Source: Xenophilus aerolatus (GTDB lineage Bacteria > Pseudomonadota > Gammaproteobacteria > Burkholderiales > Burkholderiaceae_C). From it: a stretch of DNA of 64,000 bases. A model generated the notes under the pieces. The model was given only the letters and a program-made list of their open reading frames with translations, had not been told where the DNA came from and did no database searches. Made by a program: the position numbers and the translations under genes. This document shows, in pieces, positions 34,186 through 46,166 of the stretch (positions are counted from its first letter, which is position 1; every line of letters starts with the position of its first letter). The stretch lies in contig QAIB01000001.1 of assembly GCA_030418545.1 (NCBI GenBank), forward strand, positions 682,001 through 746,000, written 5' to 3'.

Positions 34186-34248
34186 ATGTCCGAGTCTCCC
34201 CGTTTCCCTGCCGATCGCCTGTCCGTCGCCCCGATGATGGATAGGTAG
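34186..34248 (+). pseudogene. Displaced original 5' end of dusA
   Basis: ATG at 34186 opens MSESPRFPADRLSVAPMMD, the normal dusA N-terminus, then reads Arg and a TAG stop once the sequence crosses into the integrated element. The LSVAPMMD stretch is repeated in the intact dusA at 45177. This fragment marks the chromosomal side of attL and shows that dusA was interrupted between codons 19 and 20. Confidence 0.92.
34217..34241 (+). other. attL, left attachment site
   Basis: 25 bases (GCCTGTCCGTCGCC then CCGATGATGGA) match 45202-45226 with one C/T difference. The sequence encodes LSVAPMMD of DusA and is the crossover region. Confidence 0.9.
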
Positions 34249-34321
34249 AAATCCCTAGCGTTTTCGCGGTTTGCAGGCTGATCGTGTGCACCCTGTGTTC
34301 GAACATTGTGAGGAGAAGGGC

Positions 34322-34873
34322 ATGAGCGAGAAACCCGGCATTGAGGAGTTTGTGGCGCCGACGCACGTTCAAGTCGCTGCGCATCGCACCCAATTGACGC
34401 TCGCGGACGTAGTCGCATCACGCTACGACAAGCTGACTGGCTGGCTCGTCGCAGGCATGGGCGCGGCGCTCACGCTGATGATCTCGAACATCGATAAGTC
34501 GAGCGCGATCATCTCGGTGCAGAGCATCCGCAACGCGCTCAAGATTTTCATCGTCCTGTTGCTCGTACATGTCGCGCAACGCTTGCTCGCGCTCGTGATC
34601 GAAACCGCCGCAGCAGCGCAGGAAAAAGCCTCGAAAGAGGACCTATCCAAACTGAACGGGTTGGCTGAGCTCTTTGCCTACCTTGATCTTTTGGAGAAGC
34701 CTGCCGTGAGGCCGTTTTCGTGGTTTGTTTCCAAGACGCTAAATCAGGCTCGGAAAGGGCGGCTGATGGGGGCGCGCATGGTCCTGCTAATGCAGTTCGT
34801 GGTTTTCCTGGCGCTCGCTCAAGTGCTTCTTGCAGTAGGCGCGCTCATAGCCCTCGTGAGAGGACTTGTCTAG
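34322..34873 (+). CDS. Accessory membrane protein of the element
   Basis: 183 residues, strong GGAGAAGGG ribosome binding site. Hydrophobic segments: LTGWLVAGMGAALTLMI, ALKIFIVLLLVHVAQRLLAL and VLLMQFVVFLALAQVLLAVG, with a charged helical region between the second and third (AAQEKASKEDLSKLNGLAEL). Lower GC than neighbours. No family recognised. It is one of two genes oriented opposite to the structural genes and lies next to attL, a usual place for lysogenic-conversion or superinfection-exclusion cargo; that role is inferred. Confidence 0.75.
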   Translation: MSEKPGIEEFVAPTHVQVAAHRTQLTLADVVASRYDKLTGWLVAGMGAALTLMISNIDKSSAIISVQSIRNALKIFIVLLLVHVAQRLLALVIETAAAAQEKASKEDLSKLNGLAELFAYLDLLEKPAVRPFSWFVSKTLNQARKGRLMGARMVLLMQFVVFLALAQVLLAVGALIALVRGLV

Positions 34874-34955
34874 CGCTGGGGAAGCGGAAGGGCCGACCCA
34901 TGGCCGCAGCGCATGATCCGGCAGAATCGCTTCTTCAATCGACGAGGAGAAAGCC

Positions 34956-35165
34956 ATGGAAAAATTGCTAGAGCGCCTGATCGATCAAAATGCCCGATTG
35001 ATCGAGCTCGGGGAGCGACAGGTCGAGATGCTTGCGGACCTGAACGACAAGATCGCGCTTTTCCAAAGCATGGTGACGCTGCAGGACTGCAGCGCTGACG
35101 TCACCTCAATTTCCATGACACTCGACGAGATGAAAGAGACTCTCGAGGAGATGGCGGAGAAGTAG
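34956..35165 (+). CDS. Small coiled-coil protein of the element
   Basis: 69 residues with heptad character throughout (MEKLLERLIDQNARLIELGE, then SISMTLDEMKETLEEMAEK). GGAGAAAG ribosome binding site. 82 bases after the membrane protein gene on the same strand, so probably its partner. Function unknown. It converges with the tape-measure gene. Confidence 0.65.
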   Translation: MEKLLERLIDQNARLIELGERQVEMLADLNDKIALFQSMVTLQDCSADVTSISMTLDEMKETLEEMAEK

Positions 35166-35179
35166 TAGCGAGCATCAAG

Positions 35180-43886: not shown

Positions 43887-43962
43887 TTGCACGGTCCTTT
43901 CAGGTTGTGCGATTCGGTCAGAGCGGCTGGGGTGTTAGCGCACCCTGGCCGTTCGCTTTTGT

Positions 43963-44011
43963 GCCTCAGACCGAAATCAAGTGATGCCACATTGATTTCC
44001 CGCCCTGAGGC
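43963..44011. terminator. Nested dyads downstream of the integrase
   Basis: GCCTCAG (43963) pairs with CTGAGGC (44005) and inside it GAAATCAA (43973) pairs with TTGATTTC (43992). It lies just past the integrase stop, so a terminator for int is likely; there is no strong U-tract. Confidence 0.45.
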
Positions 44012-44019
44012 GCGGCGGA

Positions 44020-45048
44020 TCAGGTGAAGGCGTTGTGAACGTCCTCCGGTCGGGTGAGCGTGTAGCGCTTCAGCATCGCCCATGTCTTGTGCCCGGTGAG
44101 CAATGCCACGCGCGGAATGTCCAGACCTCGGCGGAAGAACTCGGCCGTAGCCCGGTGCCGCAGGTCATGGAAGTGAAGATCCTCGATTGGCGGCTTCACG
44201 TTCTTGCAAGCCCGGGTGAAGGCCGTAGAGACCGACGTCGCCGAGTGCGGGAACAGGAACCCCTCTTGCCGCTCCTTCAGGATCGGCTCCACGATGGCCC
44301 AGGCGTCCGGGAGGAGGGGCACAGTCTGGTTGTTGCCGATCTTCTTCCTGGGGTCTTTTCGGTCCCGGATCACCACGGTCTTTCGATCGGCGTCGACGTC
44401 CTCCGCGAGGAGGTTGCAAATCTCGGCCTGGCGCATTCCGGTGGCCAGCGCGAAGCGGCACAGTGTCTCCATGTCGATCAGCTGGCGCGGATTGTTCGAC
44501 CAGTGCAGATAGAGGCGCTGCAGCTCCGCGTCCGTGGGTTCCCGGTCGCGCTCCTTGCTGCGCGTCTCCAAACCCCGATGCTTCAGGCTGGCGCGGGCCT
44601 CTGTGGGCAGATGGTCGGGCAGGTTCAGGTGCCGAGCGTGCTTGCCCCACTTCATGATGGCCGACAGGTGCGACAGGTCGCCAGCGATGGTCACGCCACC
44701 GGCCCCGTCCATGATCCGATCGTCGATGAAGTCGCGCAGAGTCATGGCGGTAAAGGCGCTCAGCTTCACCTTTCCCAGGCGATTCCGGAGCATCGCAATT
44801 GAAGCGGTCTTGCTGCGTCCGGCCGTCTTGCTGTGCTTCTCCTCGTAGGCGTCGATCAGGTCGGCAACCGTTGCCCCCTTGGGTGGCTCGGCGTAACCGC
44901 TCGCTGCAACTTGGTGTGCCTGCCCCTCGATCGCCTTTGCCCAGGCTTCGGCATCGCGCTTGAGCGGGAAGGTGGCCGAGCGGTAGTGACCTCCACGGCG
45001 AACCTGCGCACGCCATTTGCCGCTGGGGAGTTGGGAAAATGTGGGCAT
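44020..45048 (-). CDS. Tyrosine integrase, dusA-targeting
   Basis: 342 residues. The N-terminal arm-binding domain begins PTFSQLPSGKWRAQVRRGG; a core-binding domain runs from about 60 to 150. The catalytic domain has Arg206 (ATGMRQAEI), His294/Arg297 (HFHDLRHRATAEF), His320 (LLTGHKTW) and nucleophile Tyr329 (LKRYTLTRPED). It reads away from attR, 153 bases distant, where arm sites are expected. Complete and presumably active. Confidence 0.96.
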   Translation of the reverse strand: MPTFSQLPSGKWRAQVRRGGHYRSATFPLKRDAEAWAKAIEGQAHQVAASGYAEPPKGATVADLIDAYEEKHSKTAGRSKTASIAMLRNRLGKVKLSAFTAMTLRDFIDDRIMDGAGGVTIAGDLSHLSAIMKWGKHARHLNLPDHLPTEARASLKHRGLETRSKERDREPTDAELQRLYLHWSNNPRQLIDMETLCRFALATGMRQAEICNLLAEDVDADRKTVVIRDRKDPRKKIGNNQTVPLLPDAWAIVEPILKERQEGFLFPHSATSVSTAFTRACKNVKPPIEDLHFHDLRHRATAEFFRRGLDIPRVALLTGHKTWAMLKRYTLTRPEDVHNAFT

Positions 45049-45176
45049 GTGTGCAATCTGTGTCGGTCCAAATGTGGATCACATCTTATCGGTTTATGGA
45101 CCGGGTGTGCACTTCGTGTGCACTGATTTATGCACACGCCCTGTTTTCAGGAAAAGTAACCCTGATAAAAACCGAT

Positions 45177-46166
45177 ATGAATCAACAACTTAGCTACGAT
45201 AGCCTGTCCGTCGCTCCGATGATGGACTGGACCGACCGGCACTGCCGCTTCTTCCACCGCCTGCTGACGCGCCACGCGTTGCTCTACACCGAGATGGTGA
45301 CGACGGGCGCGCTGATCCACGGCGACGTGCCGCGGCACCTGCGTTTCCACGACAGCGAACATCCCGTGGCGCTGCAGCTGGGCGGCAGCGAACCGGCCGA
45401 CCTGGCGCACTGCGCCAAGCTGGGCGAACATTGGGGCTACGACGAAATCAACCTCAACTGCGGCTGCCCCAGCGAGCGCGTGCAGCGTGGCGCCTTCGGC
45501 GCCTGCCTGATGGCCGAGCCGCAGCTGGTGGCCGACTGCGTGAAGGCCATGGTCGACGTCGTCGACGTGCCGGTGACGGTGAAGCACCGCATCGGCATCG
45601 ACAAGGTGGAGAGCTACGAGTTCGTGCGCGACTTCGTCGGCACCGTGAGCGAGGCGGGCTGCCGAACCTTCATCGTCCATGCCCGCAACGCTTGGCTCAA
45701 GGGCCTGAGCCCGAAGCAGAACCGCGAGATCCCGCCGCTGCGCTATGCGCTGGTGCATCGGCTCAAGCACGACTTTCCGGCACTGCGTTTCTCGGTCAAC
45801 GGCGGCATCCAGACCGATGCACAGGTGCACGAGCACCTGCGCCTGCTCGACGGCGTGATGGTGGGCCGCGAGGCGTACCACAACCCCTGGTGGCTGGCCG
45901 GCTGGGACGAAAGCTTCTTCGACGCGGCACCGAACGCGCTGACGCGCGAGGACGTGGAGGCGCAGATGTGCGACTACATGGCGCGTGAGGCGGCCGAGCA
46001 CGGCACGCCGTGGTCGAACGTCGCGCGCCACATGCTGGGCCTGCGCAACGGCCTGCCGGGTGCGCGGCGCTGGCGGCAGGTGTGGAGCGACCACCGCCTC
46101 AAGGCCCTGCCGCCGCACGAGGTGATGGCGCGCGCGCACGCCGTGGCCGTGGCCGATCCCGCCTGA
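45177..46166 (+). CDS. dusA: tRNA-dihydrouridine synthase A with element-supplied N-terminus
   Basis: Reduces uridines 20/20a of tRNA with FMN and NADPH. 329 residues. SVAPMMDWTDRHCRFFHRLL binds FMN; catalytic Cys97 is in NLNCGCPSERV; KHRIGIDK and NGGIQTD are also conserved. The first eight residues (MNQQLSYD) come from the integrated element and replace the original MSESPRFPADR preserved at 34186. The start codon has no good ribosome binding site close by, and the gene is now 11 kb from its former upstream neighbour, so expression must come from DNA in the element. Confidence 0.95.
   Translation: MNQQLSYDSLSVAPMMDWTDRHCRFFHRLLTRHALLYTEMVTTGALIHGDVPRHLRFHDSEHPVALQLGGSEPADLAHCAKLGEHWGYDEINLNCGCPSERVQRGAFGACLMAEPQLVADCVKAMVDVVDVPVTVKHRIGIDKVESYEFVRDFVGTVSEAGCRTFIVHARNAWLKGLSPKQNREIPPLRYALVHRLKHDFPALRFSVNGGIQTDAQVHEHLRLLDGVMVGREAYHNPWWLAGWDESFFDAAPNALTREDVEAQMCDYMAREAAEHGTPWSNVARHMLGLRNGLPGARRWRQVWSDHRLKALPPHEVMARAHAVAVADPA
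45202..45226 (+). other. attR, right attachment site inside dusA
   Basis: Direct repeat partner of 34217-34241; one mismatch (T for C) at a third codon position, so both encode LSVAPMMD. Confidence 0.9.

Follow-up and report, generated by a model that had tools for sequence, protein, structure and literature searches.

Within a 64,000-nt stretch of Xenophilus aerolatus DNA (contig QAIB01000001.1 of assembly GCA_030418545.1, positions 682,001 to 746,000), hereafter called the window, a 10,985-bp element is inserted at dusA and encodes its own integrase, replication protein, capsid protein, prohead protease and tape measure protein (TMP). The window is part of contig C11 of a 5.84-Mb genome, and Xenophilus sp. 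E41 (NZ_QPIB01000008.1) is identical to it across 21,245 nt. The ends of the element are two 30-nt direct-repeat attachment (att) copies that agree at 28 of 30 positions, one in the displaced 5′ end of dusA (34212-34241, plus strand) and the other (45197-45226, plus strand) within the 5′ end of the open reading frame (ORF) at 45039-46166, which we take to be dusA from reading its sequence. The GC content of the element is 0.613, compared with 0.678 and 0.677 in its flanks. The dusA gene is a documented target for prophages and islands; the repeats are imperfect and have a consensus of 21 bp (PMC4482086).

On the minus strand, the order from the integrase is int, three small ORFs, alpA, two small ORFs, repA, a 57-aa ORF, an ORF that we call g166, the major capsid protein (MCP) gene, the protease gene, the gene for an 87-aa protein, two small ORFs and the TMP gene, beyond which two accessory ORFs lie on the plus strand. 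The tyrosine integrase (44020-45048; PF00589, E 1.8e-22) appears to target dusA, since an integrase 65% identical to it is found at dusA in the relative L020. The AlpA-like excisionase or regulator (42381-42629) matched the helix-turn-helix (HTH) family HTH_17 (E 2.3e-6) and phrog_66 (0.0034), and is 41% identical to its L020 counterpart. RepA (40773-42020, 415 aa), a replication protein with an AAA_25 ATPase domain (PF13481, E 2.8e-40), is 59-63% identical to homologues in four relatives. The 343-aa MCP (38862-39893; PF05065, E 7.1e-9) has an HK97 fold, as its AlphaFold2 (AF2) model (pLDDT 84.7, pTM 0.84) matched HK97-fold capsids in the PDB by Foldseek (best E 3.4e-14), with TM-scores of about 0.45. 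The S78 prohead protease (38320-38859; PF04586, E 1.8e-14) is 179 aa from its likely start, which was checked, and the 768-aa TMP (35180-37486) matched PF09718 (E 2.5e-30) and several tape-measure PHROGs. The g166 ORF (39949-40377), directly upstream of the capsid gene, aligns at 25-51% identity with proteins of eight relatives and belongs to no known family. The frames of the MCP, protease, TMP and RepA are intact, with no internal stops. A first reading of this DNA from its letters and ORFs (the original prediction) had described a compact, intact 11-kb element with att sites, an integrase, a capsid, a protease and a tape measure, and the att match, the Pfam and PHROGs assignments and the open frames confirm that description; the gene order is corrected here in that the MCP gene lies upstream of the protease gene.

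When the 18 element proteins were compared with Pfam and PHROGs, no terminase, portal, tail-tube, fibre or lysis family matched at E≤0.1. Head-tail connectors likewise gave no match at this threshold, at which short proteins may be missed, and no baseplate protein was found among the scanned proteins. Leaving aside ORFs that overlap called genes in another frame, all unassigned ORFs are at most 200 aa, which is too short for a large terminase (TerL) or a portal protein. The short ORFs gave no match to a small terminase or HNH protein in either database, from which a very diverged one could escape, and the integrase gave a 0.055 match to an HNH PHROG. Absence was judged by Pfam, PHROGs and ORF lengths for the window, and by hidden Markov models (HMMs) built for this analysis for the relatives. 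The element is therefore without the terminase, portal and tail genes of a gene-complete prophage, and the earlier claim that packaging motor, portal, tail tube, fibres and lysis genes are lacking was borne out. What it does have conforms to satellites in general: a small att-bounded element with an integrase and a replication gene, and an incomplete set of autonomous virion genes.

Two non-coding gaps that flank the g166-MCP-protease cassette contain a 79-nt inverted repeat (72% identity). One copy, cos-like site 1 (37489-37576, minus strand), ends 2 nt before the TMP start codon, and the other, cos-like site 2 (40377-40455, plus strand), has the opposite orientation and weaker evidence. When a model of the inverted repeat was run over the fetched loci, its first matches outside the element were in L147, L165, L025 and L026 (E 6e-5 to 0.09), each upstream of a small-terminase gene. 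A 22-nt core, allowing up to 2 mismatches, occurred three times in 399 family genomes, in the element and just before the small-terminase genes of prophages L026 and L165, and its reversed control not at all. A 19-nt core was present in five viral contigs, namely four phage contigs (one being the L165 prophage again, by sequence) and L147; the small-terminase start codon followed it by 3-4 nt in all five, and the TMP start codon follows it by 2 nt in the element. An HMM was built from just two loci, L026 and L165, using the 110 nt that precede the small-terminase start codon; both had been fetched for their capsid genes and hence independently of the motif. Across the 64-kb window this two-prophage HMM gave E 4.4e-8 at 37487-37566 and 0.015 at 40413-40455, and the best of 20 shuffled windows gave 0.45. 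A larger HMM with three extra phage sequences gave 5.6e-14 at site 1, 9.5e-8 at site 2 and a weak third match at 40526-40610. As these sequences (L201-L203) were chosen by the core motif, the values of the larger model (E 4.2e-13, 5.6e-14) are partly circular, and we relied on the two-prophage figures, which are weaker and, for site 1, still significant.

The spacing within site 1 also agrees with that of phages. The distance to the TMP start codon is 88 nt from a G-run and 52 nt from the core; in L165, L026 and L147 the corresponding distances to the small-terminase start codon are 89-91 and 53-54 nt. In the aligned phage PAJU2, 90 nt separate the G-run, and 50 nt the genome end, from the small-terminase start codon; its record, deposited as linear, begins 50 nt upstream of the small terminase and carries an HNH gene close to the right end, and we took the record ends as physical ends from the record topology. 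In HK97 an HNH nuclease gene immediately precedes the terminase and the cos site (PMC10448857), which fits. By homology and spacing, then, a helper-type cos site is present in the element, and because it is spaced like the genome end of PAJU2, packaging of the element probably falls to a helper terminase. The cos-like site, which the original prediction had not recognised, probably explains the missing packaging motor. In the relative L147 the order is cos, small terminase, TMP, and in the window the TMP start occupies the place of the small-terminase start. Over its first 79 aa the L147 small terminase (9301-9786) has 89% identity to its L026 prophage counterpart, beyond which the two diverge, making it a hybrid with a phage-like N terminus. 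Site 2 flanks the head cassette, and it might have a role of its own or be a trace of past cassette exchange.

Relatives were surveyed by capsid and by RepA. The capsid protein as query matched in 13 of 299 family genomes, and a capsid profile in 51 of 399, many of these matches being weak; a single-query search of viral contigs with the capsid protein found no relative. At E≤1e-20, a profile of the capsid clade labelled satellites (see below) matched 9 of 399 order genomes and 2 of 369 class genomes, the window's own included in each. A RepA scan with one genome per species matched 161 stretches, of which 142 were confirmed and the best 80 were kept and annotated with purpose-built HMMs; of 53 matching stretches in viral contigs, 26 were confirmed. 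By these HMMs a capsid gene of the element's kind was present at 20 of the 80 genome loci and 23 of the 26 viral-contig loci, so that most RepA loci in genomes are without one (60 of the 80, L027-L106). No terminal repeats were found in the 26 viral contigs or contig pieces. One RepA element, from Rhodoferax antarcticus (L031, 11642-15126), carries genes for a coat-like 329-aa protein and terminase-like genes that, on sequence reading, are unlike the families studied here. As the protease HMM also caught capsid proteins, protease presence was taken from Pfam or gene-level results. The first TMP HMM missed L147, which was recovered by ORF length and confirmed with PHROGs, and the next missed L158, which Pfam confirms.

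Six loci besides the window combine a capsid gene with a TMP gene and have no detected TerL. L038, from Pseudorhodoferax soli, has RepA, g166, MCP, HNH and a 971-aa TMP; L147 has RepA, MCP, small terminase and a 969-aa TMP; and L158 has RepA, a 474-aa MCP and a 667-aa TMP. L020 and L016, both in genome G267, have MCP, portal and TMP. L189, from another family of the order, has HNH, g166, MCP and a 744-aa TMP. Clear boundaries were found for L020 (10,110 bp, att copies at dusA, with a capsid 32% identical to that of the window) and for L189 (10,262 bp, bounded by a 48-nt exact repeat at tRNA-Val); convincing ends were not found for L038, L158 or L016, the last of which is cut by a contig end. 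The composition of these relatives varies, with capsid and TMP paired with portal, HNH or small terminase instead of protease. The expectation that the same gene set would recur at about 11 kb therefore holds for the capsid and TMP genes without detected TerL and for the sizes of L020 and L189, and does not hold for a constant composition or for the loci with uncertain or larger extents. Other loci of the satellite capsid clade have MCP together with protease and/or small terminase and neither TMP nor TerL (L017, L018, L151, L163, L021 with HNH, L076, L160 and L086), or MCP and TerL without portal (L030, and L025, whose TerL misses most of the ATPase domain). TerL and TMP occurred together in none of 40 capsid-bearing satellite loci (Fisher p 0.0017, kin being counted as independent). 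This test omits six loci (L039, L083, L085, L143, L144 and L154), with which p is 0.0097; with near-duplicates and the truncated L016 removed, p is 0.018-0.030.

In a tree of 55 capsid sequences, the window pairs with L038 (support 99/86) inside an 18-member clade labelled satellites (100/96). TerL was undetected by HMMs in 15 of these 18, and L025 with its shortened TerL is one of the other three. One side of a branch (81/84) consists of the ten phage and prophage capsids, and the 19 full loci that resemble capsid-forming phage-inducible chromosomal islands (cf-PICIs) in having MCP, portal and TerL fall in a separate 27-member clade (100/100), which also holds the L158 capsid on a long branch. 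Relatives in which this element also has terminase, portal and tail genes, which would have marked the window copy as a deletion derivative, were not found, the 19 loci with MCP, portal and TerL being in the other capsid clade. L153 and L176 (too short) and the duplicates L027, L164, L023 and L043 were dropped from the tree, and L189 was found later and is absent; L035, L057, L065 and L092 have capsid matches in the HMM annotation and none in the search made for the tree. The tree kept the identical pairs L030/L139, L041/L150, L044/L152 and L143/L144 and the near-identical L140-L142 and L017/L018. The cf-PICI-like L028 (Acidovorax; at dusA, about 11.4 kb) has, by Pfam and in this order, capsid, S78 protease, portal, HNH-like and TerL genes, with the capsid gene before the protease gene as in the element, whereas prophages L019, L022 and L026 and phage SOVA965 have the protease gene first; in PAJU2 the protease is fused to the capsid protein.

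The ratio of nonsynonymous to synonymous substitution rates (dN/dS, Nei-Gojobori) was 0.14 for the portal and 0.08 for the TMP N terminus between L016 and L020, and 0.15, 0.09 and 0.14 for the MCP, protease and g166 between L017 and L018. These values indicate that the head and tail genes of the two pairs, which are relatives of the window element and not close to it, are under purifying selection. Contrary to this pattern, repA of L017 and L018 gave 0.65; the MCP value of 0.55 for L016 and L020 comes from a pair too diverged to read. L016 and L020 lie on one contig and are 93% identical in the portal and 98% in the TMP N terminus, whereas their capsids are only 40% identical. Near-identical portals and TMP starts beside diverged capsids suggest that the shell gene is exchanged as a module.

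A prophage of Pseudorhodoferax soli (L165 and L194; genome G376, contig C13, NZ_QPJK01000013.1) bears the cos core and encodes an 895-aa TMP. Over its first 65 residues this TMP has 48% identity to that of the element, and over 336 aa it has 51% identity to that of L147. Since both the cos sequence and part of the TMP are shared with this prophage, a helper of the same class is indicated. In the genome of the window itself, a siphophage-like prophage on contig C46 (146865-172852) has a 711-aa TMP distantly related to that of the element (24-33% identical in parts). Its terminase, portal, capsid and TMP genes are presumed from sequence reading only. We rejected this prophage as a resident helper, as the genome has no second cos core and no HMM-labelled terminase, portal, capsid or TMP was found there. 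It shares 19 exact words of at least 13 nt with the element, compared with 21 for a host control, and the P2-like prophage on contig C1 shares 20, compared with 34. The latter is a partial prophage by sequence reading (161000-171100) and has a portal gene (PF04860). The original prediction had the element reset the tail length of its helper, a claim that these lengths do not support: at 768 aa the element TMP lies within the range of the two partly similar prophage TMPs (711 and 895 aa), and a swapped ruler or a chimeric tail would be the safer claim.

The remaining ORFs of the element are small. A putative membrane protein gene, possibly cargo (34286-34873, plus strand), was so described from sequence reading and had no Pfam match above cut-off and no PADLOC match, and the 69-aa accessory ORF next to it (34956-35165, plus strand) belongs to no informative family. 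All others are on the minus strand. Between the TMP and protease genes lie ORFs of 57 aa (37580-37753) and 97 aa (37750-38043), neither with a known family, and the gene for the 87-aa protein (38053-38316), which resembles the small proteins encoded after the capsid gene in relatives (blast matches in L022 and L025). This protein did not match phrog_1289, unlike its counterparts in L038 (13019-13291) and L147 (8682-9011), which adjoin the capsid genes, align with the last 50 residues of phrog_1289 (annotated as portal) and are probably shortened head accessory proteins. The 57-aa ORF conserved after RepA (40603-40776) has blast matches in L017, L018, L023 and L025. On the other side of repA are ORFs of 63 aa (42017-42208) and 59 aa (42205-42384), the latter with a 48% identical homologue in L017. 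Between alpA and int lie a putative membrane protein gene (42764-43273; sequence reading, sub-cut-off Pfam matches only) and ORFs of 94 aa (43358-43642) and 83 aa (43635-43886). A search of 10 small element proteins with PADLOC found no match to defence cargo.

Taken together, the element is probably a phage satellite that uses a helper siphophage and not a decayed prophage. The original prediction had also preferred a satellite to random decay, and that preference is supported by the satellite capsid clade, the recurrence of capsid and TMP without TerL, the intact frames and the low dN/dS in relatives. Gene content, intactness, the satellite lineage, and cos homology and spacing can be read from the sequence itself. 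In the mechanism that we propose, the satellite would integrate at dusA, excise by means of its integrase and AlpA, and replicate by means of RepA. During growth of a helper siphophage with HK97/PAJU2-type packaging in the same cell, it would provide its own tape measure together with its own shell protein and shell protease, which probably give a head sized for 11 kb. The portal, the terminase that cuts the satellite cos site, the connectors and all other tail parts would come from the helper, so that chimeric virions would result. Induction by the helper, assembly of the satellite head on the helper portal and use of the satellite TMP in the helper tail are the parts that we infer.

Several observations weigh against this interpretation. 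It is a sequence inference throughout, no particle, induction or helper having been observed, and it would require a foreign shell to dock on the helper portal. The genome has no second cos core at up to 2 mismatches, and a resident helper of that type is therefore not shown. The cos HMM that included motif-selected sequences found no site in L020, L016, L158 or L189 and gave E 0.57 in L038, so that a cos site before the TMP gene is not general among the TMP-bearing relatives, and the second, inverted site in the element itself is unexplained and weak by the motif-free HMM. A 17-nt repeat would make L147 15.4 kb long, not 10-11 kb. The L020 TMP shares no significant blastp stretch with that of the window (25% over 300 aa by tblastn), and the capsid gene is absent from five same-genus genomes.

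The lack of a relative in five same-genus genomes, the low GC content relative to the flanks and the incomplete gene set would all suit an inert remnant of a once complete phage whose terminase, portal and tail genes were recently lost. We consider such a deleted prophage quite unlikely, because the RepA/AlpA module is common to satellites, the MCP-then-protease order is that of L028 and opposite to that of L019, L022, L026 and SOVA965, the capsid falls in the satellite clade, capsid and TMP without TerL recur in diverged relatives, and dN/dS is low in relatives. The element might instead be a stranded member of a satellite lineage, immobile since the loss of its small terminase; the L147 order, with a small terminase standing where the TMP starts in the window, would suit this. 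The G-run and core spacings so close to those elsewhere and the intact frames argue against a stranded copy, as does P4, which manages with a cos site and no terminase of its own (PMC10690885), and we regard this explanation as unlikely too. Lastly, the structural proteins could be an anti-phage device, either a decoy shell or a TMP that poisons a competitor, in an element that spreads by other means. TMP is both target and tool in satellite-phage conflict (PMC12987554), but the retained helper-type cos site indicates packaging, and we find this alternative very improbable.

Within the preferred interpretation of a helper-dependent satellite, we tentatively suggest a further reading, for which the case is somewhat short of even. 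The element may represent an unnamed Burkholderiales satellite lineage, with its own capsid clade, that kept the shell gene and gave up the packaging motor, the motor and the TMP being alternatives in a head of about 10-11 kb. It may have captured the cos/small-terminase leader of a helper so exactly that the TMP start replaces the small-terminase start, which would mark its genome for the helper motor and yield a mosaic virion whose shell and ruler come from the satellite and whose portal, motor and tail come from the helper. If the satellite works by the mechanism proposed above, its shell has to be compatible with the portal and terminase of a helper, and which head-assembly contacts are interchangeable would become directly testable. 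The shared cos sequence would also predict possible helper phages from DNA alone.

Comparison with known systems places the element among satellites already in print. By the cf-PICI definition that we used (PMC10690885), it shares the major capsid protein and head maturation protease with these islands, and the portal, large terminase, small terminase and HNH genes were not found in it; cf-PICIs are described there as helper-dependent for tails only. It resembles the cf-PICI-like L028 in MCP-then-S78 protease order, RepA family, dusA site and size, and differs in having a TMP, in having no portal, HNH, small or large terminase or connectors that we could find, and in a capsid of another clade. 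TMP genes have been reported in a sampling of cf-PICIs (PMC12987554, discussion and Extended Data Fig. 10 legend). Capsid- and TMP-bearing satellites without terminase have also been reported in E. coli (PMC10448857), where they match phages Inny, Muut and Mt1B1_P17 and, like the element, are att-bounded and have MCP and TMP but no terminase or most tail genes. These satellites have RepA_N and a baseplate component and no S78 protease, AlpA or Pri-Rep, whereas the element has an S78 protease, an AlpA-like HTH protein, an AAA_25 RepA and a siphophage-type cos-like site. The element thus adds a variant to a known kind of satellite; in a limited search of the literature we recognised no account of this Burkholderiales lineage or of a cos site before a satellite TMP gene. 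In P4 and cos-type PICIs the helper terminase packages at a satellite cos site, as proposed for the element, but these satellites redirect or resize helper capsids (PMC10690885), whereas the element encodes its own shell protein. The PICI-like element (PLE) of Vibrio cholerae encodes its own TMP, as the element does, and this TMP was shown to build chimeric tails (PMC12987554); unlike the element, PLE also encodes TAC and a baseplate hub, and it remodels helper coat proteins (PMC10945586). The lineage would stand between cf-PICIs and PLE, with its own shell, its own ruler and a borrowed motor.

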